From Clostridioides sp. ES-S-0054-01 (GTDB taxonomy: Bacteria > Bacillota > Clostridia > Peptostreptococcales > Peptostreptococcaceae), in the NCBI GenBank assembly GCA_021561035.1, contig CP067346.1, positions 1,147,001-1,211,000 on the forward strand: DNA of 64,000 nt, in the 5' to 3' direction. This document shows, piece by piece, positions 10,586 to 19,155 of this stretch (the stretch's first letter is position 1; each line of letters starts with the position of its first letter). Below the pieces are notes generated by a model that did no database searches, had not been told where the DNA came from, and saw only the letters and a program-made list of their open reading frames with translations. The translations under genes and the position numbers were made by a program.

Positions 10586-11899
10586 ATGAATGAAAAGAAT
10601 AAAATGGGATTGATAAGTATTATACTTTTAGGTATTAATGCAGTAGTAGGAGCTGGAGTTTTCCTATTACCAGGAGATGCAATGAAAGCATTTGGTGTAG
10701 CAAGTATATTTGTATACATGTTTGATATGTTATTAGTTTTATCTATGGCATTCTGTTTTGCTGAGGTGGCAGGTAAATTTAACAAAAACGGTGCTGCCTA
10801 TGTATATACTAAGGAAGCTTTTGGAGATTTTTGTGGTTTTGAAGTAGGTCTTATGAAATGGGTAATAGGATGTATCTCCTGGGGAGCTTTGATAGTAGGT
10901 TTTCCTACATCATTATCAGCAGTATGGGCTCCAGCAGGTGACCCATATATACAAAAAATTATAATTGTAGCCATGATAGTTGGACTTACAATTATAAACT
11001 TATTAGGTGTATCTCTATCAAAAATTGTACAAAATGTTATAACTGTAGGTAAACTAATTCCATTAATATTATTTATAGGAATAGGAATATTTTTTATAAA
11101 AGGAGTTAATTTTACTACTTCAACAATGGTACCTCCAGGAGCTGGAGCAACAGAGTTTGGAGCAGCAGCACTTTTAATGTTTTATTCATTTACAGGGTTT
11201 GAATCTATAGCAGTTGCAGCAGAAGATATGGAAAATCCCAAAAAGAATATACCAATAGCAATTATAAGTGTAATAGTAATTGCATCAATAATATATATAT
11301 TAAATCAAGTTGTATGTGTTGGTATACTAGGAGATTCATTATCTAATACATCTACACCAGTTGCAGATGCTGCAAGAATATGTTTTGGAAATATGGGTGC
11401 TGGATTGGTTACTTTTGGAACATTGGTTTCTGTTGGTGGAATTTGTATGTGTGGTGCTTTCGTAAATCCAAGAAGTTGTGTGGCTTTAGCTGATGATAAA
11501 ATGTTACCAAGAATATTTGCAAGAAAAGATAAAAAAGGTACACCATATGTAGCGATAATAGCTACTATGCTAATCACTATACCAATAGCTTTATCTGGAA
11601 GCTTTGCTGAATTAGCAGCGATAAGTGCAGTTGCTAGATTTATACAGTATATACCAACATCGTTATCAGTATTAGTATTTAGAAAGAAAAGACCAGAATT
11701 AGTAGGTACTTTTAAAACTCCTTTTGGAGCAGTAATCCCTCTAATTGCAGTATGTGTTGGTACATGGTTATTGTTCCAAGCATCTATGCATCAGTTAATT
11801 ATGGGATTAGGAGCTTTAGCAATCGGAGTACCATTATACTTTATAATGAAGTCTTATAATAGAAAGGTTTATGGTGAAGATTTAAAGAAAATAGTTTAA
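10586..11899 (+). CDS. APC superfamily amino acid/amine permease
   Basis: Integral membrane transporter of 437 aa with about 12 hydrophobic segments. The first helix has the APC pattern NAVVGAGVFLLPG, and EDMENPKKNIP follows the YSFTGFESIAVAAE segment typical of the family. I chose ATG 10586, 7 nt after a GGGGGG SD; a TTG upstream overlaps that SD. It is the last gene of the sigma-54 operon and probably supplies substrate to the PuuD-like hydrolase. The substrate (amino acid, polyamine or GABA-like) is not determined. Confidence 0.88.
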   Translation: MNEKNKMGLISIILLGINAVVGAGVFLLPGDAMKAFGVASIFVYMFDMLLVLSMAFCFAEVAGKFNKNGAAYVYTKEAFGDFCGFEVGLMKWVIGCISWGALIVGFPTSLSAVWAPAGDPYIQKIIIVAMIVGLTIINLLGVSLSKIVQNVITVGKLIPLILFIGIGIFFIKGVNFTTSTMVPPGAGATEFGAAALLMFYSFTGFESIAVAAEDMENPKKNIPIAIISVIVIASIIYILNQVVCVGILGDSLSNTSTPVADAARICFGNMGAGLVTFGTLVSVGGICMCGAFVNPRSCVALADDKMLPRIFARKDKKGTPYVAIIATMLITIPIALSGSFAELAAISAVARFIQYIPTSLSVLVFRKKRPELVGTFKTPFGAVIPLIAVCVGTWLLFQASMHQLIMGLGALAIGVPLYFIMKSYNRKVYGEDLKKIV

Positions 11900-11964
11900 T
11901 TATATTATAATAGTTTATTAAGCTAAAGTTAAATATTGGCAGAAAATTAAATACAAATAAGTAC

Positions 11965-12018
11965 ATATAAGGTTATATTAAAATATTATTAGTTTTTTAT
12001 TTTAGTATAGCCTTATAT
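11965..12018 (+). terminator. Long hairpin after the permease gene
   Basis: A 20-bp stem (11965-11984 with 11999-12018) in which two positions are G-U pairs, with a 14-nt T-rich loop. There is no T-run after it, so it may be a weak terminator or a 3'-end stabiliser. I see no other feature in 11900-12105 apart from the SD of the next gene. Confidence 0.5.
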
Positions 12019-12733: not shown

Positions 12734-14719
12734 ATGAAAAATCTGTGTAAAATATCAGATGATTATTTAAACAGCAAGCTTAAGTATTTAAAGTTATTGT
12801 CAAAACAATATCCAAGTATATCAAAAGCAAGTACAGAAATAATAAATTTAGAGGCTATATTAAATCTTCCAAAGGGAACAGAACATTTTATAACAGATGT
12901 ACATGGTGAATATGAACCATTTGTCCATGTATTAAAAAATGGTTCTGGTGTAATAAAGAGAAAAATAGAAGAATTGTTTTCAAATACAATAAGAGACAGT
13001 GAAAAAAAAATGTTAGCAACTCTTGTATATTATCCTGAACAAAAACTAGATTTAATAATTAAGCAAGAGGAAAATATAGATGATTTTTATAGAATAAATA
13101 TTTATAGGCTTATAGAACTTTGTAAGTATGCTTCTAGCAAATATACTAGGTCTAAAGTCAGAAAGCTTTTACCAGAAAATTTTAAATACATAATAGAAGA
13201 ACTTTTGCACGAGCATGTTAAAAGTGAGCATAAAGAAGAGTACTATAAAAGTATAGTTGAAACAGTAGTTGATATAGGAATAGCTAAAGAGTTTATAATT
13301 GCTATTTCTACAGTTATACAAAAATTAGTTGTGGATAGACTGCATGTAATAGGAGACATTTATGATAGAGGTCCAAGACCAGATATAATTGTCGACAAGC
13401 TTATTGAGCATCATTGTGTAGATATTCAATGGGGAAATCATGATATATTATGGATGGGTGCAGCATCAGGTGAAAAAACTTGTATAGCAAATGCACTTAG
13501 GATATCAGCTAGATATGCGAATTTAGACATTGTAGAAGACATATATGGAATAAATCTATTGCCTTTAGCCACTTTTGCTATAGAGATGTATAAAGATGAC
13601 CCTTGTAAAGAATTTATTCCAAAGATTAATGACCAAAGTGTAACAACAACAGAAAAATCTTTAATGGCGAAAATGCATAAAGCAATAAGTATAATTCAAT
13701 TTAAGCTTGAAGGTGAAGTTATAAGACGAAGACCTGAGTTTGAGATGGAACATAGACTTTTGCTCAACATGATAAATTATGATGAAGGTACGATTACTTT
13801 AAAAGGGAAAACATATAAATTAAAAGATACCTATTTGCCTACAATAGACAAAAAAGACCCATATAAATTAACAATAGAAGAAAAAAACGTTATGGATAAA
13901 TTAGTATCTTCATTTAGAGGCAGTGAAAAATTACAAAAACATGTTTCATTTTTATTTTCTAAAGGAAGTATATATTTAAAAGCAAACTCAAATTTACTGA
14001 TTCATGGATGTGTACCATTAAATGAAGATGGAAGTTTTATGTCTATGAATATAATGGGAAAAGAGTATAAAGGTAAAGCTCTTATGGATAAAATGGAATC
14101 TCTAGCAAGAGAAGGGTTTTTCTTTAAAGATAAAGCAGAAGAAAAACTATATGGTATGGATATTATGTGGTATTTGTGGACTGGAAAATGTTCATCATTA
14201 TTTGGAAAAGATGATATGACTACATTTGAAAGGTATTTTATAGCAGAAAAAGAGACTCATAAAGAAAATAAGAATCCATATTTTAAGCTTAGAGAAAATG
14301 AGATGGCTTGTGAAAAAATATTTGAAGAATTTGATTTAGAACTTGATGAATCACATATAATAAATGGTCATGTTCCTGTGGAAAGTAAAAATGGGGAGAG
14401 TCCAATAAAAGCTAATGGTAAAATTCTCGTTATAGATGGTGGTTTTTCTAGAGCTTACCAAAAAACTACTGGTATAGCTGGATACACTTTGATATACAAT
14501 TCTAGAACCTTACAATTAGTATCACATGAACCATTTAATTCTGCAGAAGAAGCCATTGCAAATGAAAGCGATATTTTATCTACAACCGTTGTAGTAGAGC
14601 ATAAAACAGAGAGAAAAATGGTGAGGGATACTGATGAAGGAGTAAAAATACAAGAAGAAATAGAAGATTTAAAACTACTTTTGATGGCTTATAAGAAAGG
14701 TATGATAAAAGAAATGTAG
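12734..14719 (+). CDS. fbp: Fructose-1,6-bisphosphatase, class III
   Basis: Gluconeogenic enzyme that removes the 1-phosphate of fructose-1,6-bisphosphate. The 661-aa length fits the large Firmicutes FBPase III family. Metallophosphatase motifs are visible: [20 protein letters not shown] and [10 protein letters not shown] in the N-terminal half, and HIINGHVPV plus [10 protein letters not shown] near the C-terminus. GGAGG precedes the ATG, with an extended -10 promoter upstream and a terminator at 14744 downstream, so it is monocistronic. Confidence 0.95.
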
Positions 14720-14743
14720 ATATTATAGGAGGTTTTCGTTCGA

Positions 14744-14791
14744 GACTGTAAGTAGGTTTGTGTAAATACAAACTTACCTATAGTCTTTTTT
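14744..14791 (+). terminator. Terminator after fbp
   Basis: An 18-position stem (14744-14761 with about 14768-14785, two G-U pairs and one mismatch) followed by six T. An AGGAGG at 14727-14732 between the fbp stop and this hairpin has no gene behind it. Confidence 0.85.
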
Positions 14792-14849
14792 GAATGTAAA
14801 ATTGGTAAGATTGGAATAATATTCATATTAAACTTTTGGAGGTAAAGAA

Positions 14850-15257
14850 ATGGAAGAATTATATGGTATTGACGTATCTCCTGCAATGATATCTAAGATA
14901 AAAGAAGTTAAAAGATTAAATAAGAAACTTAAAAAACTTCAAAGGTAAGTTTCAAGGAAATGTGATATGTTAAAAAGTGGTAATACCTTTCAAAAAGGTG
15001 AAAAACTTATAAAAACTTAAAATATCATAAAGGTTGAAACGCAGATAAAACTTGTCTATAAAAAACTTTCTGATATTAAATTAAATCATATACACCAAAC
15101 TACTAATACAATAGTGAAAACCAAGCCTTGTAGAGTAGTAGTAGAAAATTTAAATGTAAGAGGTTTATTAAAACATAAACACTTGTCTAAATCAATTTTA
15201 CAATGTAAACCCAGTTGGGTATCCAAAATGACCAGTTGGAGAGATTATGTTGAATAA
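14850..15257 (+). pseudogene. Transposase remnant: IS256-like start fused to TnpB (IS605 OrfB) fragment
   Basis: Codons 1-16 after an SD and ATG read like the IS256/Mutator transposase segment LYGIDVSPAMISKI. From about codon 18 the same frame reads as TnpB: RLNKKLKKLQR, then VSRKCDMLKSGN, then LNHIHQTTNTIVKTKPC and VVVENLNVRGLLKHKHLSK. Two in-frame TAA codons (14946-14948 and 15018-15020) break it, and the zinc-finger and catalytic C-terminal part is missing. It is therefore a dead chimera of two insertion-sequence families. It marks the left edge of the decayed island between fbp and spoIIIAA. I saw no intact IS ends around it. Confidence 0.8.
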
Positions 15258-15308
15258 TAGAATAAGGTGTGTTATTTTTTAAGTATAGAAGGTTTGGAGG
15301 CGATTTAT

Positions 15309-15600
15309 ATGACCGAATCTTGTGTTAATAAGATAACATCCTTTTTAATTTGTAATAAAACAGTAAACGAAAAGGAATATGATTTATACTTATATGGATT
15401 TAAAACATTAATAGCATTTATAGTTAATATAATTGTTATATTATTATAGGATATATACTAAATCGATTTAAGGAAACTGCATTATTTTTATATGACACTG
15501 TCCAATACGATAATTTACAGGTGGATATCATGCAGATAATTACAAAAAATGTTTATTATCATTTATTTCAATCTATTTAGTTAATGTGTATTTGATATAG
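15309..15600 (+). pseudogene. agrB-like pseudogene (accessory gene regulator B)
   Basis: A good SD and ATG 15309 open a frame reading MTESCVNKITSF, then IYxYG-like LYLYGFKTLIAF, typical of the AgrB N-terminus. The frame stops at 15449. One base earlier in another frame the homology goes on (IGYILNRFKETALF). After a second shift near 15505-15517 it continues as TGGYHADNYKKC, holding the conserved AgrB His and Cys protease residues, then SIYLVNVYLI and a TAG at 15598. Two frameshifts and a short length mean it is inactive. AgrB normally cleaves and cyclises the AgrD peptide; a small peptide ORF follows 6 nt later. Confidence 0.8.
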
Positions 15601-15606
15601 GAATTA

Positions 15607-15834
15607 ATGAGTAAAAAAGCAGACTATCATAGTTATATCGTTAATGGTTTAGATGAGACGAATACTATGGAAAAATTAACAATTAGCGCAATAGCTGGTA
15701 AGGTTGAAATTGAAGAGGTTGAGGTACAAGTAGATTCATGTAGATATAATCCAAGTGCAGAAACTTACTACTGTTATACAGATTGTGAACCAATAGATGG
15801 TAGACCATCGCCATTTGGATTAACAGCGTATTAA
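15607..15834 (+). CDS. Small Cys-containing peptide of unknown function
   Basis: 75 codons from ATG 15607, or 55 from the internal ATG at 15667; neither has a strong SD. I do not recognise a family. The C-terminal part has three cysteines (in DSCRY, YYCYTDCEP), several tyrosines and prolines, and ends in SPFGLTAY. The middle is acidic and Val/Glu-rich. This leader-like front and Cys/Tyr/Pro-rich tail resembles a precursor peptide, though no modification enzyme is adjacent. It occupies the place of agrD after agrB, but it does not match the AgrD pattern I know. An intact large permease follows. It may be a real peptide gene or a stranded fragment. Confidence 0.5.
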   Translation: MSKKADYHSYIVNGLDETNTMEKLTISAIAGKVEIEEVEVQVDSCRYNPSAETYYCYTDCEPIDGRPSPFGLTAY

Positions 15835-15952
15835 GAATTAGATAAAAAGTAAGAGTAACTTTATGTGACAGAGTTTTGAAGCAGGAAATCTATATTTTTT
15901 ATATGAGATTTACTGATTTAATACTTTTTAATAAATATAGGGGAGAATGATT

Positions 15953-18523
15953 ATGAATAATACATGGAAACTAGCAGTTTCTTACATGAAAAAACAAAAA
16001 GGAAAAACAATAGCACTATTATCATGTATAGTTCTTGCTGTGATGCTTATTTTCTCAATGAGTGTGATTAGGAATTCTGGATATGATTCTCAAATAACAG
16101 AGGCGAAGGATTTACAGGGTGACTATCACGTAGAGTTTAAGGAGTTAGATAAGGATAAAGTACAGAATCTTATAAATGAAAATGATATATCAAAGTCGAA
16201 TACCTCAAAAGAACTATGTGAAATAGTCGATAAAAAAAGCGGCGTTAAGCTTGATTTAAATTCATTTGACAAAAAATTTATAAATTTTTTGAGATATAAG
16301 ATAGATGGAAGAGAACCAATAAAAGATGGAGAAATAGTAATAGAAAAAGAGGCTACAAATCAGATGGGAATATCTGCTCCATTAAATAAAAGTATAGACT
16401 TAATGCTTTTGAACAAGTACTTAGATGACAATGGAATTAATCAGATAGACAGTGCAAATAAAACATTCAAAATCGTTGGTTTGATAGAAAAACCAGCTAA
16501 ATATTATGACACATCTAGCTATGGTTCCATATTTAGAGCCTTTGTGTATAATGACTCTAAGTTACCAATAAAAGTAAACGATACATATACTGGAACAATA
16601 TATCTTAAGTCAGAGAAAAATGTATCTCAATTTATAACTAAAATGACAAAAAAGCTAGATACTAATCTATCTAAGTTGCATGAAAATGGGGAGGTTGATT
16701 TAGCAAAACATCAAAGACAAACTTCAAAATTTAGTAAAGAAAATATTATAAACTCAGTCCTTTTAGTTTTTGTATCAACTATTGTGATATACAATATATT
16801 TAATATTATTTTTCAGGATATGACTAGTCAAATAGGTCTTATGAGATCTATTGGTATGTCAAATAAAAAAGTAAAAAGCATGCTTATTACTATGGGCTTT
16901 ATTTATATAATTTTAGGAACCCTAATAGGAATAGTATTTGGAATGATTTTTTCATATGTTGGGTTAAGAGTAGTGTATGGATACAGTTCGGTACTAACAA
17001 TACAAATATCTAGTATAATATGTTCTTTTGTAGTTTCAATCATATCAGTATCTCTTTCTAGTTTTATAGTAATTAAAAAGTCTATGAAAATGTCTATAAT
17101 CGAAGCTATAATGACAAGTGAAAAGTATGAGAGAAAATCAAAAAACAAAAATAAAAAGAGAGATGAAAAAAGTAAAAATTTACTTATAAGTATAGCAACT
17201 AGAAATATATGGAGAAATAAACCTAGAACAATATTGACAATATTAGCAATTACTTTTATTGGAACAATGTTTATATTAAATTTAGGTACTAAAAGTTTTG
17301 TAAAATCCAATATGGCAGAAGGAATAACAGGTGGTTCCTGGTCGATGTCATATGGAAGTGTGGATAAAACTATTGAGGGTTATTCTGGAAATTCAGAATC
17401 TTTATTTTATAAATTAGACAATAATTTAATACAAAAAGTAAATGATACAAAAGGAGTAAGGTATGTAGAACCACATTTTTATAATCATCGTGCCCATATT
17501 TTGCTTTCTAAAGATAAGTTGTCAAAAGCATATCAAGACGAATTGGACAGAAAGAAATCCTCTTATCAAGATGAATATATCAATGAATATCCACTTTTAA
17601 TAAGAGGATATAGCGATGATATGTTAAAGCAACGACAAGGATTTATTGAAAAAGGTAAAAATATACTAAGTCCTATATATGGTGAGTATAAGAAAGTAAT
17701 CTTAGTTAACAATACAAATTCGCAAGTTACACATTCTTTTGCTACAAAGGTGATTGATGATGTGAAAATAGGAGATATTATAGAAATAAAACTACCTGTA
17801 TATAGAGATGGAATTGAAAAATATGAAAACTTCAAGGTGGAGGTTAGCGCTATCATGAAAGAATCATATGCAGCAGGTCAGGATGGGAATACACAAGCTC
17901 AAGGGGCTCAAATAATATTTAGAGAAAATGATTATAAAGAATTAACAGGTCAAAAAGAGTACAATAAACTTTTTATAACAGCTGAAAAAGGACAGTTATA
18001 TTCTGTAGAAAGAAGAGTAGAAGAATTAACCAAGAATTATGGAGCTACAGAAATCAATGGAAAAGGTGAAGAACTAAAACTTATGGGAGCTCAACAAAGT
18101 TCAGAAGAAAGGCTTTCTATAATATATCAGATTTTGATTCTATTAATACTTTCAGTGAATATCATTTTCATTATGAGAAGTAATATTATTGCAAGAAGAA
18201 AAGAGTTGGCAACCTTAAGAGCAATTGGTATGAGTACAAAAGGTATTAAAAAAATTCTAATTATTGAAAGTCAACTATATGGAATTATAGCTTCTATAAT
18301 CGGATCTGTGATTGCAACAGTTAATTACAATTATAATATAGTAAATCTAAATAAATCTCTTTTAGAAGGTGGATATACTAGGACAGCAGAACTCAATATT
18401 CCTTGGACTCAAATAATTATACTATTTGCAATTTTTGTTGCTATGGGATTTATTTCTGTATATATATCGAAAGATAAAATTGAAGGAGAATCTATTGTTG
18501 AGTGTTTTTCACAAAATGATTAA
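15953..18523 (+). CDS. FtsX/MacB-type ABC transporter permease
   Basis: Large 856-aa membrane protein of the type that works with a separate ABC ATPase to export or extract peptides or lipids. An N-terminal membrane anchor (about 20-42) is followed by an extracytoplasmic domain, three helices around residues 265-390 (MTSQIGLMRSIGMSNKKV is the FtsX coupling region), a second anchor near 430, a second large external domain, and a last three-helix bundle with the coupling stretch ARRKELATLRAIGMS. It thus holds two FtsX domains. ATG 15953 is 7 nt after GGGGAG; an ATG at 15947 is too close. No intact ATPase gene is adjacent. The frame is intact although its neighbours are broken. Confidence 0.85.
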   Translation: MNNTWKLAVSYMKKQKGKTIALLSCIVLAVMLIFSMSVIRNSGYDSQITEAKDLQGDYHVEFKELDKDKVQNLINENDISKSNTSKELCEIVDKKSGVKLDLNSFDKKFINFLRYKIDGREPIKDGEIVIEKEATNQMGISAPLNKSIDLMLLNKYLDDNGINQIDSANKTFKIVGLIEKPAKYYDTSSYGSIFRAFVYNDSKLPIKVNDTYTGTIYLKSEKNVSQFITKMTKKLDTNLSKLHENGEVDLAKHQRQTSKFSKENIINSVLLVFVSTIVIYNIFNIIFQDMTSQIGLMRSIGMSNKKVKSMLITMGFIYIILGTLIGIVFGMIFSYVGLRVVYGYSSVLTIQISSIICSFVVSIISVSLSSFIVIKKSMKMSIIEAIMTSEKYERKSKNKNKKRDEKSKNLLISIATRNIWRNKPRTILTILAITFIGTMFILNLGTKSFVKSNMAEGITGGSWSMSYGSVDKTIEGYSGNSESLFYKLDNNLIQKVNDTKGVRYVEPHFYNHRAHILLSKDKLSKAYQDELDRKKSSYQDEYINEYPLLIRGYSDDMLKQRQGFIEKGKNILSPIYGEYKKVILVNNTNSQVTHSFATKVIDDVKIGDIIEIKLPVYRDGIEKYENFKVEVSAIMKESYAAGQDGNTQAQGAQIIFRENDYKELTGQKEYNKLFITAEKGQLYSVERRVEELTKNYGATEINGKGEELKLMGAQQSSEERLSIIYQILILLILSVNIIFIMRSNIIARRKELATLRAIGMSTKGIKKILIIESQLYGIIASIIGSVIATVNYNYNIVNLNKSLLEGGYTRTAELNIPWTQIIILFAIFVAMGFISVYISKDKIEGESIVECFSQND

Positions 18524-18660
18524 GCATAACTATATAAAATAAAATGTAGAGCAAAAATGACTGATAAAAAAATGATTGATAATATAAAAATAGAGTTTAA
18601 AGTTGAAGATTTACTGATAAGCAAAAGATTATTTGGATACTAATGAGATTATGAGATATA

Positions 18661-18855
18661 TCTCAGAAAATAATAACAGAAAATATAAGTAACTTGCTAG
18701 AGAATAAAACCGTTATTGTTATATCCCATAGATTATCTACTATAAAAAATGCAGATAAAATATATGTTATAGACAAAGGTAGAGTTATTGAATCAGGTAA
18801 TCATGAGGAACTTATATTAAATGAAAATACATATTATAGTTTAGTAAATGAGTAA
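18661..18855 (+). pseudogene. ABC exporter ATPase, C-terminal remnant
   Basis: About 64 codons without a start codon match the end of an exporter-type ABC ATPase: ENKTVIVISHRLSTIKNADK holds the H-loop histidine, followed by VIDKGRVIESGNHEEL. In frame upstream is a TGA at 18652. A degraded signature/Walker B stretch may be present around 18610-18650 in shifted frames. The Walker A and membrane domains are gone. It was probably an ABC peptide exporter of the island. It cannot be the working ATPase of the intact permease upstream. Confidence 0.75.
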
Positions 18856-18880
18856 AGACATAGTTTAACATTAGCTTAAA

Positions 18881-19155
18881 GGGGGTGTTGCAAAATGATT
18901 AAAATTAATCATGAGTGACAGCTCTTTTTTTGACATGAATTTTTTAAAAGGCAAAAGCACAGGTTAGTTTACAGTCTCAATTTATTACTTATAATCAAAT
19001 ATTATTTGAAAAATGGTATTTTTATACCTTTATTTGTCATGCATAATTTTACTTAGAACATAAATTTTATATAAAATAATTAAAAATACACCTATTAAGA
19101 TAAGTAAAAAAGAGCTCTCACAGAACAAATTTAATTTGCTCATGTGACAGCCCCT
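18881..19155. mobile_element. About 275-bp non-coding element with inverted ends (MITE-like)
   Basis: The left end (18881-18930) and the reverse complement of the right end (19105-19154) align over about 50 bp: GGGG, TGT, an AT-rich loop, GTGA, then AGCTC and a T-run. Each end can fold by itself, the right end with an 11-bp stem (GAGCTCTCACA with TGTGACAGCCC). No coding capacity is seen inside; a small palindrome GGTATTTTTATACC lies near the middle. No clear target duplication was found. It may be a non-autonomous element, or two related terminator hairpins facing each other. Confidence 0.55.

Follow-up and report, generated by a model that had tools for sequence, protein, structure and literature searches.

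Why does a 4.4-kb insert holding an intact permease gene and pieces of other genes separate fbp from spoIIIAA in Clostridioides sp. ES-S-0054-01, and could any of it still work? To address this, we analyzed a stretch of 64,000 nucleotides of contig CP067346.1 (positions 1,147,001 to 1,211,000), referred to here as the window, whose numbering is used below. Our reading, to which we assign a probability of about 0.85, is that the island is a deletion-truncated relic of an agr-linked radical S-adenosylmethionine (SAM) cluster for a ribosomally synthesized and post-translationally modified peptide (RiPP), of the kind carried by a plasmid of P. sordellii C116. The original prediction, made from the DNA letters, listed a transposase chimera, a broken agrB, a small Cys-containing peptide, an FtsX-type permease and the tail of an ATP-binding cassette (ABC) exporter between fbp and spoIIIA. 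Open reading frames (ORFs), domain matches and comparison with the plasmid show all of these parts, in that order. Its notion of a former bacteriocin-like locus was right in kind, and the gene content now points to a radical-SAM RiPP cluster with agr genes. The parts that bear on this reading are as follows.

15309..15443, + strand: agrB remnant, residues 1-45 (AgrB, E = 1.3e-4; 51% to the plasmid AgrB)
15496..15588, + strand: agrB remnant, residues 64-94, in the other frame, with one in-frame stop, TAG (65% to the plasmid AgrB, tblastn)
15589..15640, + strand: scar, with loss of the 3' half of agrB, the whole of agrD and the DNA 5' of the precursor (plasmid 11160-11965 is without counterpart)
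15667..15834, + strand: putative RiPP precursor, 55 aa, with leader KVEIEEVEVQ and three Cys in the core (alignment with relatives)
15835..15952, + strand: precursor-permease spacer, with a predicted hairpin and, by eye, a good ribosome site for the permease
15953..18523, + strand: FtsX-type (MacB/LolCE-like) permease, 856 aa, intact (domain search and alignment with the plasmid)
18557..18628, + strand: N-terminal remnant of the first radical-SAM gene, rSAM1 (unbroken match up to plasmid position 14949 of locus L153)
18629..18655, + strand: second short piece of rSAM1, about residues 108-119 (match 18619-18661, 81% over 43 bp)
18656..18855, + strand: C-terminal tail of an ABC exporter (84% DNA identity to the end of the plasmid exporter; match runs to 18880)

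The P. sordellii C116 plasmid (NZ_CP124296.1, L153) carries twelve genes in the complete order agrA-agrC-agrB-agrD-precursor-permease-three radical-SAM genes (rSAM1-3)-S8 protease-ATPase-exporter. Positions 15641-18628 of the window, covering the precursor, the permease and the rSAM1 start, match it in one piece at 87% DNA identity, while three further pieces are collinear with it: the start of agrB, the short match within rSAM1 and, at 84%, the final 225 bp of the exporter region. The order of genes is thus the same in both, whereas the plasmid cluster is complete in its agr genes, three radical-SAM genes, protease, ATPase and exporter, and has another precursor core. Missing from the window are agrA, agrC and agrD, one half of agrB and almost the whole stretch between the early part of rSAM1 and the exporter tail. 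On the right side of the island, about 0.3 kb and then 6.6 kb of the plasmid sequence are missing, and the few bases shared at the joints, as judged by eye, are as one would expect of illegitimate deletion. Of the radical-SAM/SPASM maturases, which are complete in the relatives, the window holds scraps of rSAM1 (the N-terminal part and some 12 residues). Lacking a complete maturase, the locus is therefore a relic and not a working member of the radical-SAM RiPP clusters. Likewise, protease and exporter are both complete in L153 and in a sister cluster described below (L019/L065), while only the exporter tail is found here. This tail had been predicted as that of an exporter ATPase, and it is indeed present; as an ATPase for the permease we rejected it, since it is the end of a separate ABC exporter.

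The agrB gene is broken, as had been predicted, into two pieces in two frames with a stop. The ORF at 15303-15446 matches AgrB at E = 1.3e-4, with 21.8 bits against a cut-off of 23, and a profile search of the genome placed an AgrB match above the cut-off at 15433-15618, with four stops. With half of the gene, a frameshift and a stop, the locus has no intact AgrB of the kind that an agr quorum-sensing locus requires. The scar that follows corresponds to about 0.8 kb present in the plasmid, and the plasmid agrD stretch has no counterpart in the window.

A former autoinducer locus was one of two original suggestions, which would make the small Cys peptide the signal. The peptide is not an AgrD; it is rather a RiPP precursor, for which a search with the precursor of the sister cluster finds relatives in 7 of the 71 genomes of the family (the genome sets used here hold one genome per species). 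The frame is open from 15607 (15607-15834, 75 aa), and a second in-frame ATG at 15667 lies near the start of the relatives. Eight columns are identical across the 11 other precursor rows, and the window peptide keeps all eight, so that on its sequence it is a short precursor with a conserved leader, as found in radical-SAM RiPP clusters. The usual DPC motif, however, is DSC here, which counts against function of this precursor. Overall protein identity to the plasmid precursor is 51%, and the cores differ. A dN/dS comparison of the peptide had been suggested, and it gave a divided answer: the leader is little changed (5 nonsynonymous changes of 53 sites), while the core is changed at 35/79 sites as compared to 107/526 silent sites of the permease (Fisher p = 1e-5), in an alignment of the core that is short and contains a gap. 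Fast change in the core together with a conserved leader fits diversification or a swapped core.

A complete sister cluster lies on the same chromosome about 0.5 Mb away, at C1:632361-646583 (L019 3361-15605, L065 730-2583), in the order agrA, agrC, agrD, agrB, precursor, permease, rSAM1-3, S8, ATPase, exporter. Its three radical-SAM proteins each carry CxxxCxxC. Its S8 protein matches the QhpE model best (E=1e-24, below the model cut-off), and the best NCBIfam match of its rSAM2 is PapB (214 bits, cut-off 340), with the SCIFF and quinohemoprotein maturase models also below cut-off. In general, the complete clusters hold radical-SAM, SPASM, S8, ABC and AgrD domains by Pfam and NCBIfam. Sister and window permeases are 63% identical, and the precursors 47% over their matched part. 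We considered the island as a simple duplication of the sister cluster and rejected this, as the window permease is 63% identical to that of the sister vs 83% to that of the plasmid.

Other relatives of the permease and of the agr genes are found in the same genome. At L020 4852-10843 (C1, about 0.5 Mb; termed here the 503-kb module), agrA-agrC-permease-ATPase are seen with no precursor or enzymes, making it a candidate stand-alone sensing and protection module. One permease relative, at C1:1466426-1468966 (L011), has a single in-frame TAG, and another, at C1:3249161-3249367 (L015), is a stop-ridden fragment with 51% identity. At L021 6234-8320 (C1, about 2.37 Mb), agrC-agrB-agrD stand beside what we take to be an amidase-like gene and small phage-like genes. 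This arrangement resembles the phage-borne agr of phiCDHM1, as far as the consulted part of its description goes (PMC3901668).

Beyond this genome, all nine precursors of the other six precursor-bearing genomes of the family sit in stretches with radical-SAM, S8, exporter and permease genes (in one, L071, neither rSAM3 nor ATPase was seen within the 20 kb fetched). The 12-precursor alignment from these seven genomes matches 11 of 393 genomes of the order at E <= 0.001; the four additional genomes (G010, G051, G054, G064) match more weakly, and two of the 16 places hold a stop. An FtsX permease is the next gene downstream of the precursor in 12 of 15 settings, the window included, and lies just upstream in one (L070). 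In G031, 40 kb in two stretches hold four precursors and five permeases, but only a single cognate ATPase and a single copy each of rSAM1-3, S8 and exporter, with rSAM1 spanning the border of the stretches. Members or related gene sets occur in Clostridioides, Paraclostridium, Peptacetobacter, Peptostreptococcus and Tepidibacter, the last with no precursor found. The precursors gave no NCBIfam match and no Pfam match above cut-off, and among the matches listed in one library, a search of titles and abstract starts gave no description of this cluster. The locus points to a RiPP family that the models used here do not name, whose clusters combine three radical-SAM enzymes with a QhpE-like protease and agr-type sensors, and in which precursor-permease pairs recur.

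Nine loci were annotated out of 80 kept from 227 relatives. The exporter tail led to a looser relative on a plasmid of C. difficile TW11 (NZ_CP045225.1, typed mobilizable; L154 8875-14233), which has two radical-SAM genes, an S8 protease, an exporter and a 59-aa Cys peptide that is without the DxC...DC pattern and was counted as a precursor by position only. The P. sordellii C171 plasmid NZ_CP124282.1 (L156 3193-19100) carries a further agr-linked cluster, which has three radical-SAM genes and a typical precursor; a separate LytTR-kinase-permease-ATPase module lies downstream. Parts of the gene set are shared at L073, L077, L079 and L080, but none of these loci yielded a precursor showing the core pattern, and no radical-SAM match was found near the S8 gene in L081, L083 and L084 (C. 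difficile), nor in L085 and L087.

Several findings weigh against our reading and should be considered. Silent divergence from the plasmid is 0.24 in the permease vs 0.7-1.0 in the agrB and exporter remnants (p = 2e-5 and 1e-3). The higher divergence of these remnants indicates parts with different histories, so that the island descends from a mosaic ancestor rather than from the cluster of this P. sordellii plasmid as such. Close relatives are also few: searches of 72,556 plasmid records with the precursor (E 0.01) and the permease (E 1e-40) of the P. sordellii plasmid gave no record beyond their own, and the S8 protein gave one more. Furthermore, agrB and agrD are seen in some of the clusters only (own, L153, L069, L156), and no permease stands beside the precursor in two of the 15 settings (L154, L156). 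Finally, the immunity role that we propose for the permease is read from gene company, and product and activity are predictions from the genes.

The permease itself was predicted to be intact, and indeed its frame runs for 856 codons with no gap and no stop against the plasmid. It may be read as 858 aa from 15947 or as 856 aa from 15953, and the latter corresponds to the start of the plasmid relative. The protein has two FtsX stretches (E = 8e-26), a LolF match (E=1.3e-4) and, on a crude scale, eight hydrophobic stretches, and its domain matches place it with MacB/LolCE/BceB-type permeases, with two predicted FtsX domains and large outside domains. No cognate ATPase adjoins it among the ORFs of 14.7-19.3 kb. 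The dN/dS analysis that had been asked for shows constraint on the gene along its branch. Between window and plasmid, dS is 0.238, dN 0.085 and omega 0.36. With the permease of G003 as third sequence (the broken permease of G005 was left out of this work), the branch omega is 0.31 for the window (95% confidence interval 0.21-0.46), 0.43 for the plasmid and 0.23 for G003. The window value reaches 1 in 0/2000 bootstraps, and exceeds that of the plasmid branch in 13% and that of the G003 branch in 86%. A neutral window branch would predict 13-25 stops in the permease, while none is observed, which limits neutral evolution to no more than 12-23% of the branch, depending on the mutation model. Selection thus acted on the permease during most of the time since it split off, which rules out long neutral decay and is still compatible with recent loss. 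We also asked whether the outside domains change faster, as would be expected if they changed together with the core; as this reached p = 0.03 in one of four comparisons, it was not used.

How the open frames survived is a separate matter from what the island was. The original prediction offered two explanations, recent decay or selection that retains the permease to work with an ATPase encoded elsewhere, and either could be compatible with the data. Its statement that all neighbours broke holds for agrB and the exporter, but not for the precursor, the frame of which is open. Plain recent decay, in which the cluster was inserted, its core was deleted, precursor and permease are intact merely through short time and nothing works, is given an even chance by us. 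Homology to the plasmid begins only 26 bp 5' of the precursor ATG, with the plasmid DNA further upstream missing; in place of the plasmid ribosome site GAGAGGGG stands a poorer stretch; the spacer after the precursor has a weaker predicted fold than in the plasmid, at -19.1 vs -30.5 kcal/mol; and agrB has its frameshift and stop. The exporter tail, moreover, has an omega of 0.09 over 66 codons, suggesting that truncation came late and that the loss is recent. One should nonetheless weigh that the lesions of agrB fall within 280 bp as compared to none in the 2.6 kb of the permease, and that the missing stops limit any neutral time as given above.

Orphan immunity, in which the permease is kept because it protects against this peptide family and borrows its ATPase from the sister cluster or the 503-kb module, is possible but rather doubtful. 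The omega of its branch, which is not above that of the plasmid branch, would be expected if it were kept. Two ATPases that are 78-80% identical to that of the plasmid cluster occur elsewhere in the genome. Between modules, ATPases share 72-83% identity even where the permeases share only 35-38%, and the single cognate ATPase of G031 stands with five permeases. Permease-ATPase modules without a precursor also exist: LytTR-kinase-permease-ATPase modules are found in G003, in G005 and in the own genome, and precursor searches gave no match in them. However, the island has no ATPase, a promoter scan was no better than chance (36 sites vs 34), and the permease relative in G005 (L038 10652-13218) is split over two frames; the agrA, agrC and ATPase genes next to it have open frames. 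A search 5' of the precursors with a presumed LytTR-box pattern found no pair of boxes.

We consider it improbable, more so than orphan immunity, that precursor and matched permease form a working satellite of the sister cluster, one enzyme set making two peptides with different cores. This suggestion comes from the leader block EIEEVEVQ, common to the window and sister precursors, from the fast core and from G031, where one enzyme set and one cognate ATPase stand with four precursors and five permeases; given this arrangement, and as precursor and permease are usually together, a pair living off the sister can be envisaged. Yet the lost upstream DNA, the altered ribosome site and the decay of agrB are explained no less well by ordinary recent decay. 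A working agr autoinducer locus with the Cys peptide as its signal, for which the agrB remnant just 5' of the peptide speaks, can be dismissed, as agrB is broken, the peptide is a member of a distinct family of precursors and finds no NCBIfam match, AgrD included, at E up to 1 (the sister AgrD matches TIGR04223 at 8e-11), and agrD and precursor are separate genes in the intact plasmid order.

The borders of the insert are set by the following features.

12734-14719: fbp (FBPase_2 match)
14728..19153, no strand: insert (flanks about 4.4 kb apart here vs 0-63 bp in 7/7 other Clostridioides genomes)
14850..15257, + strand: broken transposase fragments, TnpB-like pieces (weak NCBIfam match and phage transposase DNA)
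18882..19153, no strand: non-coding stretch, likely the end of a mobile element (repeat and plasmid matches)
19342-20310: spoIIIAA (seen as an ORF; the name is that of the original prediction)

The flanking DNA is 90.6-95.8% identical in all seven other genomes, and the insert is absent from the site in each. The fbp terminator had been taken as the left border. A hairpin does exist (about 14745-14795, by eye), but it falls within the insert and is unlike those 3' of fbp in the relatives, six of seven of which have a terminator-like hairpin there (by eye; L040 is without) at the point where the insert begins here. The transposase chimera consists of pieces at 14850-14948 (32 aa) and 15114-15257 (47 aa), weakly supported by IS200_TnpB of NCBIfam (E = 0.0094); its start is presumably IS256-like, fused to the TnpB-like pieces. 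Positions of about 14992-15196 match phage records at 69-72% DNA identity, most of them annotated as transposase (20 of 58 records listed). A phage origin of the island was rejected, as viral contigs hold no permease relative and only the transposase-like stretch matched among these 20 records; the remaining 38 include one Clostridioides record. At the right end, 18975-19153 is a 179-bp non-coding repeat with full or partial copies, some only short pieces, in 8/8 genomes of the genus searched (19 matches in G003), and on a C. difficile plasmid a match to it has a transposase gene nearby. Both ends are thus likely to hold mobile-element debris, and the odd, broken island is explained as the stump of a mobile peptide cluster.

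As to the complete cluster, we infer from its genes that AgrB and AgrD would produce a cyclic autoinducer, which AgrC and AgrA would sense and then activate the precursor operon. The three radical-SAM/SPASM enzymes would introduce cross-links into the core with its Cys and Asp residues, a QhpE-like S8 protease would cut off the leader in the cytoplasm and the ABC exporter would release the peptide. The S8 proteins begin near the catalytic domain and show no evident signal peptide, as judged by eye. The FtsX permease and the LolD-type ATPase would clear the peptide from the membrane of the producer; that they act in such self-protection is somewhat favored, since sensor-permease-ATPase modules without a precursor match exist. 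In the window, deletions would have removed or cut the agr genes as well as every gene for an enzyme, protease, ATPase or exporter, so that precursor and permease remain. If this pair works in trans, peptide repertoire and self-protection could grow by two-gene cassettes, and the complete clusters make this testable.

Known systems share parts of this plan. A bacteriocin plasmid candidate of C. difficile (PMC6807378) is likewise an extrachromosomal radical-SAM cluster, but with a C39 peptidase and a ubiquitin-activating-type enzyme, and agr is not found in the text of that paper. PapB-type ranthipeptide/sactipeptide clusters, as partly described in PMC8172795, are alike in their SPASM radical-SAM maturases and Cys-bearing core, whereas the NCBIfam matches shown for all three radical-SAM proteins are below cut-offs here; the PapB and SCIFF matches of rSAM2, likewise below cut-off, are a sequence hint at a possible ranthipeptide-type product with a Cys thioether to a non-alpha carbon. 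In the quinohemoprotein system, according to the consulted part of PMC7876137, a radical-SAM enzyme forms Cys-Asp/Glu thioethers, leader removal by QhpE takes place in the cytoplasm, and the exporter is QhpF. This likeness, together with the conserved D-x-C and DC motifs, suggests that the peptide may be thioether-cross-linked. QhpD/QhpE/QhpF are thus alike in the radical-SAM enzyme, the cytoplasmic subtilisin-like protease, the ABC efflux and the leader-bearing Cys/Asp substrate; that substrate, however, is the gamma subunit of quinohemoprotein amine dehydrogenase, whereas here it is a 55-aa peptide in the company of three radical-SAM enzymes, agr and an FtsX permease.

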